A stretch of 46,721 nt of DNA from Bacteroidetes bacterium QH_7_62_13. Its GTDB lineage: Bacteria > Bacteroidota > Rhodothermia > Rhodothermales > Salinibacteraceae. The stretch lies in NCBI GenBank assembly GCA_003023365.1, contig PXTG01000020.1:1-46721 (forward strand), given 5' to 3'. A program made the position numbers and the translations under genes. Numbering within the stretch: position 1 is the first letter of the stretch; every line of letters starts with the position of its first letter. Below the pieces are notes generated by a model that saw only the letters and a list, made by a program, of their open reading frames with translations, ran no database searches and was not told where the DNA came from. Shown here piece by piece: positions 8,047 to 19,648 of the stretch.

Positions 8047-9237
8047 CTACGAGGGGGGAAGGTCCGGCTTCGTGACGTCGGCCGTTTCCGCGCTCTCTTT
8101 GTCCTCGTCGGCAGGGGCCCCGTCGCCGGCGGGGGGCGCCTCCGCTTCGCCGTTGGCGATGGCCTCGTCTTCCTCGTCCCAGTTATCGATCGCCTCCAGG
8201 ACACGGTCCACAATCTGATCCTCGGGGATCGTGTCCACCACCTCACCGTGTTTGAAGAAGTGGGCACGTCCGCGCCCGAGCGAGACCCCGAGGTCGGCGC
8301 CGCTGGCCTCGCCCGGGCCGTTGACGGCACAGCCCATCAGGGCCACGTTCAGGTCCTTATCGAAGCTTTGCTCCGCGACTGCCGCTTCAACTTCCTCGAC
8401 GATGGAGAACAGATCTCCGACGAGCCGGCCACACGTGGGACACGCGATGATGTTGACGCCGGGCCGTCCGATGCCGAGCGAACTGAGGATGCGGTGGCCC
8501 ACCTTCACCTCCTCGACGGGATCGGCGGCGAGGGAGACCCGGATCGTGTCCCCGATGCCGTCGGCCAGCAGGGAGCCGATGCCGATCGAGCTCTTGACCG
8601 TCCCGGTATCGAGGGTGCCGCTCTCCGTTACGCCCAGGTGGAGGGGATACTCGGTCTCCTCGGCTACTTTCCGGTAGGCCTGGATCATCATGTACGGGTC
8701 GGAGTGCTTCACCGAGATGACGATGTCCTCGAAGTCGTTCTTGTGGCACACCTCCACGTGACGCATCGCGCTCTCAAAGAGGGCCTGCGGCTTCGGGTAG
8801 CCGTGCTTGTCGAGAATATCCTCTTCGAGCGACCCGGAGTTGACCCCGATGCGAATCGGAATGCCGGCGTCCTTCGCCGCCTGTAGCACTTCGCGCTCCC
8901 ATTCCGGCTTGCCGATGTTGCCGGGATTGATGCGGACCTTATGAATGCCCGCCTCGATCGCCTTCAACGCGTACTGGTAGTTGAAGTGGATATCGGCCAC
9001 GATGGGGACGGAGGCGCCCTGGACGATGTCGCCGAGGGCGTCGGCGTCCTCCGGGCGCGGGACCGCTACACGCACGATATCGGCACCGGCGTCCGCGAGG
9101 CGCTCGATTTCGTCGAGCGTCGTGTCCACCTCGTGGGTCTTGGTGGTCGTCATTGACTGCACCGAGATCGGGGCGTCCCCTCCAATCTGTACGTCACCGA
9201 CGTGAACGGGGCGCGTCTCGCGGCGGGGGCGTTCCAT
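8047..9237 (-). CDS. ispG: 4-hydroxy-3-methylbut-2-en-1-yl diphosphate synthase
   Basis: This is the [4Fe-4S] enzyme IspG (GcpE) of the non-mevalonate isoprenoid pathway, which converts methylerythritol cyclodiphosphate to HMBPP. The 396-residue protein has the TIM-barrel part first (APISVQSMTTTKT, DIVRVAVP, VADIHFNY, KVRINPGNIG, IRIGVNSGSL). The iron-sulfur ligands follow: CPTCGR near residues 266-269 and MGCAVNGPGE near 301. It is the compact form without the large central insert of plant and chlamydial enzymes. The last 40 or so residues form an acidic Ala/Glu/Asp tail, unusual for the family and consistent with a halophile. It appears monocistronic or precedes the CC-motif gene. Confidence 0.96.
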   Translation of the reverse strand: MERPRRETRPVHVGDVQIGGDAPISVQSMTTTKTHEVDTTLDEIERLADAGADIVRVAVPRPEDADALGDIVQGASVPIVADIHFNYQYALKAIEAGIHKVRINPGNIGKPEWEREVLQAAKDAGIPIRIGVNSGSLEEDILDKHGYPKPQALFESAMRHVEVCHKNDFEDIVISVKHSDPYMMIQAYRKVAEETEYPLHLGVTESGTLDTGTVKSSIGIGSLLADGIGDTIRVSLAADPVEEVKVGHRILSSLGIGRPGVNIIACPTCGRLVGDLFSIVEEVEAAVAEQSFDKDLNVALMGCAVNGPGEASGADLGVSLGRGRAHFFKHGEVVDTIPEDQIVDRVLEAIDNWDEEDEAIANGEAEAPPAGDGAPADEDKESAETADVTKPDLPPS

Positions 9238-9422: not shown

Positions 9423-9678
9423 TCACGATTCACTCGCCTCGTAGAGCGTTTTCTTCTCTTCGTCGCTGAGGGAGTCGTAGCCGTTCTCGCTGATTTTATC
9501 GAGGATGCGGTCGACTTCGTTCGACCGGGTCGATGGGGAGCCGTCCGAAGAGGAGGCGGGCCGGGGGGGCGAGTCGGACGAGTTGGTGTTGGTCGTTCCG
9601 CCGAAAAGGCCCCTGATCCGGTCCAGCAGGCCCGTGGAACGAACCTGAGGAGCGTCGCGACCGCGAGCGGCGTCCCCC
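9423..9678 (-). pseudogene. out-of-frame C-terminal tail of the upstream rhomboid gene
   Basis: This frame encodes DAARGRDAPQVRSTGLLD, a Ser/Pro/Asn-rich linker, and ends with EVDRILDKISENGYDSLSDE and a short EKKTLYEAS tail. That ending is the usual C-terminus of Bacteroidota rhomboid-like proteins. It is shifted by one base relative to the catalytic part. The two frames meet at a run of five G on the minus strand (9674-9678). Removing one G would give LFGDAARGRD and a single continuous protein. The tail has no start of its own except a TTG at 9680. It is probably a displaced part of the same gene. Confidence 0.75.
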
Positions 9679-10404
9679 AAACAGGGGCGCCATCCACGAC
9701 GGTGCGTTGAGCTCGTCGCGTAGCACTTTGGCGAAGAGAAAGCCCGACAGCGCGCCCCCCCAGTGGGCCGCTACGGCGGTGCCGCTGCTCGAGAGCATCA
9801 GCAGAGCGTCGATGATCAGGAAACCGACCACCACGTACAGCAGACGAACAACTCCGAAGAAAAGGAGGCCAATCTTCTTGTAGGGATAGAGGATGGCCAC
9901 CGTCATGAGTACCCCGAGCACCGACCCTGAGGCCCCGACGACCGGCACCACGCCGCTCCCGGTGATATCGGGGAAGAGCGGTTGAAGGAGGAGACACATG
10001 AGACCGCCGCCTACGCCCGTCACCAGATAGACGGTCCAGAACTGGCGGGACCCGTGCATGCGTTCGAACTCTTTCCCGATCCAGAAGAGCCACAGCATGT
10101 TGAACCCGATGTGGAGAAGCCCCGACAGCCCCCCGCTCGTGTGCATGAAGTTGTAGGTCACGAGCTGCCACGGTTCAAACAGAATATCCGGGAAGACCGG
10201 ATGGAGGGCCAGGTGGTTCATCACGAACCGAAACCCTGCGGGCCACAGGTGCAGGAACTGCGCCACGACGTATACCGCCACGTTGATCGTGACAATTGTA
10301 CGCAGCGCGGATGGCTGGCGGTAGTACCAGGTTCTGAACTGATTCACGGCCGTTCGTTTGACTATTGATCCCCAGCCGACATTCTGGATCGGCGTAGGGC
10401 TCAT
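9496..10404 (-). CDS. rhomboid-family intramembrane serine protease (frameshifted near its C-terminus)
   Basis: A polytopic membrane protein of the rhomboid fold. Catalytic Ser lies in VVGASGSVLG near residue 160 and the His in AAHWGGALSGF near 213. Other landmarks are FMHTSGGLSGLLHIGFNMLWL and the ExxxG-type loop EFERMHGSRQFWTVYL. I set the start at MSPTPIQN (10404); the frame is open to 10446. After LNAPSWMAPLFGG near residue 245 the frame becomes an Arg/Ser-rich sequence unlike any protein, and the expected tail continues in the next frame (9423-9678). The catalytic core is intact, so the truncated product might still cut substrates. A second rhomboid gene lies 215 bp upstream on the same strand. 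Confidence 0.85.
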   Translation of the reverse strand: MSPTPIQNVGWGSIVKRTAVNQFRTWYYRQPSALRTIVTINVAVYVVAQFLHLWPAGFRFVMNHLALHPVFPDILFEPWQLVTYNFMHTSGGLSGLLHIGFNMLWLFWIGKEFERMHGSRQFWTVYLVTGVGGGLMCLLLQPLFPDITGSGVVPVVGASGSVLGVLMTVAILYPYKKIGLLFFGVVRLLYVVVGFLIIDALLMLSSSGTAVAAHWGGALSGFLFAKVLRDELNAPSWMAPLFGGRRSRSRRSSGSFHGPAGPDQGPFRRNDQHQLVRLAPPARLLFGRLPIDPVERSRPHPR

Positions 10405-10619
10405 GGAATGAGAACACACAGGTGTTGTACCATGCAAACCGCCCAAGGTTTACCGATGCCGCCCGCGGTTTTACTCGTAATCAGTAACGGACTGGCGGGG
10501 GAAAAGAGGGGCGCAGCCCGGCGCGCGTGTAGATTCCGATCGGGTTCATCGGGCAGATGCTGACGACCATCCGCGATGAAGAAAGGTGGCCTAGCCCGGT
10601 GCACCAATGCCGGACGGCG

Positions 10620-18438: not shown

Positions 18439-19648
18439 TCAATTGCCCGTCGGGTTCGGGTGGCGAGCTACGGGAAGCGTCATACACCGAGGACCGCCCC
18501 GTCCCCGGGACAATTCGGTACCGGCCAACTGGATGGCGACCTTCTCCGAAGCGGGGTCGAAGGATCCGGATTCGTAGTAGGAAAGGAAGCTCTCGGCGGA
18601 CACGATCCGGTATCCATGGTCCTGGAGTCGGTCAAAAGTGCGGCGGTTGCGCTCGTACCCGAGGATTGCGCCCGGCGCCGCAGCAAAGACGTTGGCGCCG
18701 TCCGTCCACTGCTCGCGTTCCTGGTGCAGACGATCGGCCCCCCCGCAGGGGATGAAGGTCAGGTCGCGGTCAAGCAGGTCGTTGAGGGCGTCCCGAAGGT
18801 TGCGCCGCATGTCGGTAACGAACGGTGGGGGACGCGAAGGTGAATACCGTATCCAAGTGCATAGTAGAGCGCCGCTTCGGGAGGTCGACTGCCAGAACGT
18901 GTTCAACCGACGTACGCTCGAACAACTCGTGGGCAATAGCCATGATGGCTCCGAACGAGGTGCGCTCCGAGTGACCGATGAGCACCGTTTCGGGGCTCGC
19001 TACGAGAAGGTCGCCCCCCTCGAACGTGACCCCTGGCGGAAGCTCAATAATCTTGTCGCTGTGGGGGGCGAATCGGGGATGGTAGTTGAGCACTGCATTA
19101 ATAATGATACTTTCCCGCGTCCGGGCCACAGTAGCGGCGTGGCTCAGGATGATGTGGTCGTGGACGACCGCCGCCAGGTCGCGGGTAAACATGAGGTTGG
19201 GCACGGGCTGTACCTTGATGGGCAGCTCCGATTCCCCGGTCAGGGCGAACGTCTTCAACTCCTCCGGCGAAAGCTCCTTTAGGTCCTTCTCGACAGCTCC
19301 CAGGTTCTGCTCCGGCAGACTGCGGCACAACTTTTCGACGAATGCGTGGCGGGCGTCTTGTTTCTGGAACGTTTCCGAAAGCAATTCGCCGATTTGCAGT
19401 ACCGTATCGGGGCGACCCACAATTTTTTCAAAGACCGAGCACATGAGAAGGTGCTCCTTGCGGGCGTGTCCCAGGAAGAGAATATCGTCGAAGAGTAATT
19501 CCGCCCGGTTGTCGGGGGCCACGAGCTCCATCTCCTGTCCCGGCGTATGCACGATCACCTGCTCTAACAAGTGCGCCTCCGCAGGAATGCCGTAGACAGA
19601 TTCGGTCTGTTCGGTCGGGGGAGCGCTGGGCGCGGAGGGCGTGGACAC
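18439..19648 (-). pseudogene. arcA: arginine deiminase, broken by a frameshift and probable internal deletion
   Basis: The N-terminal frame (19648 to about 18840) encodes MSTPSAPSAPPTEQTESVYG and continues through NLMFTRD, VTFEGGDLLV and TMHLDTVFTFASP. The rest continues in the next frame from PPFVTDMRRNLRDALND (from about 18842) through FIPCGGADRLHQEREQW to the active-site cysteine in RGGPRCMTLPVARH. Together they hold the catalytic Asp, Glu, His and Cys of arginine deiminase, which turns arginine into citrulline and ammonia. The frames meet at a run of five C (minus strand). Between MHLDTVFTF and the following TGG/CGG motif only about 24 residues remain where classical enzymes have about 48. 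This suggests a deletion as well as a shift. Without correction the product would stop after 292 residues and lack the nucleophile. No other arginine-pathway gene is in the window. Confidence 0.85.

Follow-up and report, generated by a model that had tools for sequence, protein, structure and literature searches.

The closest described counterpart of the gene analysed here is ArcA of P. aeruginosa (PDB entry 1RXX). The full-length protein encoded by the relatives of the present organism aligns with this enzyme, including the motifs FTRD, EGGD, HLDTVF and RGRGG-CMT, and the active-site residue roles used below are those established for the P. aeruginosa arginine deiminase, transferred through the 1RXX alignment. 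Unlike P. aeruginosa ArcA, the copy described here is split over two frames and lacks 28 residues. In this respect the locus resembles a second known system, the frame-breaking scaffolding deletions of metagenome drafts, which are clean, range from tens to some hundred bases with any remainder modulo three, and occur in assemblies where short N gaps are abundant. Unlike those, the join in the present gene carries no N, and it is not recognisable from the window alone.

The window, i.e. the whole stretch of 46,721 nucleotides that was analysed, is contig C20 (PXTG01000020.1) of Bacteroidetes bacterium QH_7_62_13, an assembly of 2.07 Mb in 118 contigs that is 62% complete. Judged by the loci of named relatives, it belongs with Salinibacter/Salinivenus.

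Architecture of the split gene

The arginine deiminase gene runs on the minus strand from 19648 to 18439 and is encoded in two frames that meet at a join. Its pieces are held by the open reading frames 18770-19648 (-) and 18439-18936 (-), with the following layout:

18823..19648, minus strand: arginine deiminase 5' part, with a GTG start at 19648 and the correct frame up to ...MHLDTVFTFASPT
18439..18822, minus strand: arginine deiminase 3' part in the other frame, with FVTDMRRN, CGG, REQWTDGAN, the catalytic Cys motif SRGRGGPRCMTLP and the stop, in this order
18822..18823, minus strand: join of the two parts, where 83 nt of the relatives are absent; there is no N anywhere in the window
18827..18831, minus strand: C5 run, forming the codons TCC-CCC, 4 nt outside the join and without effect on the frame

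The reading frame of the 5' part encodes 292 amino acids, 275 residues of which are true, and shows 83% identity to residues 2-276 of a protein from a relative of the same genus; the 3' part shows 86% identity to residues 298-431 of this same protein. Since both pieces align to one relative protein, the split is not a product of chance. The 5' part holds the active-site Asp (FTRD), the Glu (FEGGD) and the His and Asp (HLD), while the catalytic Cys (RCMT) is separated from these residues by the lesion. Hence, Asp, Glu, His, Asp and Cys are all present, though spread over two frames, as the initial annotation had described, with HLD in one and Cys in the other. One continuous frame with the full catalytic domain is not found in this copy, from which 83 nt are absent and in which the frame changes.

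A DNA alignment with the loci of 18 relatives reveals a single, clean join, TTCGCGTCCCCCACCG/TTCGTTACCGACATG at 18822/18823, with an uncertainty of ~1 base in its position. The contig is continuous across this point, with no visible assembly mark. Compared with almost all relatives of the same genus the deletion comprises 83 nt, and 80 nt compared with L006, whose locus is one codon shorter. The length is thus, as had been proposed, not divisible by three; it equals 28 codons minus 1 nt, which shifts the frame. The 28 residues lost directly after MHLDTVFTFASPT correspond to approximately positions 290-316 in P. aeruginosa ArcA according to the 1RXX alignment. Two details of the initial annotation need to be corrected: the loss had been estimated at ~24 residues, and the frames had been placed as meeting at a C5 run near 18845, whereas the run occupies 18827-18831 and the join lies at 18822/18823. 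The short distance between MHLDTVFTF and CGG that it reported is borne out, the missing stretch being absent in comparison with every relative. The spacing in relatives had been named beforehand as the check that could overturn the annotation; short spacing turned out not to be common to them, and as a natural variant it was absent from all relatives compared.

Family assignment and distribution

The PF02274 profile scores 149 bits on the 5' part and 81 bits on the 3' part, both above the cut-off of 22.8 and in agreement with membership in this family. An intact relative scores 254 bits, and the match in the full-length protein of the relatives spans residues 51-424. With the arcA equivalog model TIGR01078 of the arginine dihydrolase pathway, two intact relatives reach 281.5 and 279.8 bits, below its curated NCBIfam cut-off of 489.1, and both likewise stay below the PRK01388 cut-off of 414; their scores in these comparisons are ~280-294 bits.

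An arginine deiminase gene was found in 27 of 27 Salinibacteraceae genomes and in 37 of the 41 genomes of a wider sample reaching to order level. The other 26 genomes of the family carry it at full length or close to it, and this genome alone has the match divided between two frames. The gene is an unremarkable representative of the arginine deiminases that all Salinibacteraceae searched possess. A second, intact copy was not found in the organism's own, 62% complete assembly.

Carbamate kinase, arcC, exceeded the TIGR00746 cut-off in none of the 41 genomes. As an observation in its own right, all 27 Salinibacteraceae genomes possess a gene resembling arginine deiminase but no arcC above the curated cut-off, and the two intact proteins examined stay below the arcA equivalog cut-offs; the role of the enzyme may differ from arginine fermentation. 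A search of the literature found no work specifically on the arginine deiminase of Salinibacter.

Selection on the two parts

Counted by codon position (1/2/3), the base changes specific to this copy number 10/4/38 in the 5' part and 1/1/11 in the 3' part. Residues that are invariant among the relatives are altered here in one of 150 cases before the join and in one of 85 after it. Both parts bear the signature of purifying selection only, with no decay. The third-position bias and the retention of invariant residues indicate that selection acted on the gene up to the present or very close to it. No relaxation of selection following the lesion is seen, as the third-position bias exists on both sides, though a very young lesion would look alike. 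The lack of decay fits a very young deletion or no deletion equally well. The initial observation that the rest of the gene is conserved holds for both halves; the conclusion drawn from it, a young loss, competes with an artefact that fits as well.

Frame breaks and gap sizes elsewhere in the assembly

Frame changes were surveyed in ~820 kb of this genome (G000) plus the window, with 1.2 Mb from G002, a near-complete relative, as the reference. Relative to G002 the frame changes in 9 of the 130 genes that could be compared; in the control loci of relatives it does so in 1 of 91 (one-sided Fisher p 0.036, or 0.09 once two false calls are dropped). These two calls among the nine, L125 and the gene at 785545 (L176), were recognised on inspection as false positives at gene starts.

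The plsX gene (L168, contig C42, ~12915) lacks 22 nt from its core, which breaks the frame; the plsX of an intact relative matches TIGR00182 with 316 bits. As plsX is normally essential, this break is difficult to attribute to the organism itself. In a gene for a PIG-L/LmbE-type deacetylase (L153, contig C27, ~2890) 215 nt are absent and the frame is broken, and the same holds for a gene encoding a large protein, with 47 nt absent and an N run within the same gene. An RND transporter gene (L117, contig C10, ~8264-8315) contains an imperfect tandem copy of ~45 nt at its frame change, as if two versions of one stretch had been stitched together. The contig of the arginine deiminase gene itself holds one further case, in which the frame changes near 9640, in a variable linker:

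9426..10431, minus strand: rhomboid-family gene, the second frame-broken gene of the contig, with its conserved last 30 residues in the other frame

Further essential-gene checks were of no help: gyrA, on C89, is intact, and neither rpoB nor secA is present in this incomplete assembly. In L169 (contig C43, ~10640), a stretch of 84 nt of G002 is absent without any N, as judged from match coordinates only; this difference is in frame and may be natural.

The ~820 kb of the assembly that were read contain 27 N runs with lengths of 9-264 nt. For the seven measurable runs, the true gap is longer than the run of N by 123, 82, 94, 75 (42 to 113 nt across relatives), 106, 58 (from weak matches) and 2 nt, with four relatives agreeing on the third and the last value. 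Six of the seven runs thus fall short of the missing sequence by 58-123 nt. The N runs could in part represent operator masking rather than scaffold gaps, although their unequal lengths disfavour masking for six of the seven. With gaps underestimated to this extent, a scaffolder would join two ends that are truly ~80 nt apart and leave no N between them, and the 83 nt lost from the arginine deiminase gene match the size of this underestimation. A literature search on the assembly question found nothing.

Assembly deletion or young pseudogene

The loss of 83 nt is probably an assembly deletion, and the organism most likely has the gene intact. Metagenomic reads would have been assembled and scaffolded, leaving two contig ends separated by a real gap of ~80 nt; the scaffolder would then have underestimated this gap and joined the ends without N, at the cost of 83 nt. 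This particular join probably arose in the same manner as the underestimated N gaps. An assembly fault is likelier than a dying gene because comparable losses exist elsewhere in the draft, including one in a normally essential gene. The lack of an N or other visible assembly mark at the join, the modest number of broken genes and the fact that a recent real deletion would also be free of decay speak against this explanation. The proposal of the initial annotation, a real and very young deletion, carried by the organism itself or by the strain that dominates the sample, which inactivates arginine deiminase by the frame shift and makes it a recent pseudogene, agrees with the clean single join in a continuous contig without N and with the good conservation of the remainder, as expected if the loss is recent. 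It is nevertheless doubtful, though clearly the strongest of the alternatives: other genes of the same assembly, including plsX, have suffered similar losses, the excess of frame breaks (9/130 versus 1/91) extends beyond this locus, gaps in this assembly are systematically and mostly 58-123 nt too short, and every other genome of the family has kept the gene. We therefore favour an assembly deletion over a real young deletion.

The conservation of both halves would also be compatible with programmed frameshifting that joins the two frames, or with fragments that act together as a split enzyme. Since 28 residues are absent, a frameshift would not yield the normal protein, and with no such arrangement in any relative we consider both very improbable. 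A one-base homopolymer sequencing error is suggested by the C5 run adjoining the join and is the least credible explanation of all, being refuted by the alignment. The 83 nt are absent beside the run, while the run itself is in frame and has the synonymous counterparts TCC-CCG, TCG-CCC or TCC-CCA in the relatives. The initial view that a homopolymer error is insufficient was accordingly correct.

Under either reading, assembly deletion or real loss, the matter is an ordinary one. It calls for caution with draft genomes derived from metagenomes, in which clean deletions free of N can mimic young pseudogenes; such false pseudogenes can come to light when the gaps in other parts of that assembly are measured. 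If the loss were real, this would be the only copy split over two frames among the 27 genomes of the family. It is rather unlikely but conceivable that a single lineage of Salinibacter type has genuinely, and only very recently, lost its arginine deiminase, in a family that otherwise always keeps the gene but has no recognisable carbamate kinase and would thus use the enzyme for something other than ATP-making arginine fermentation.
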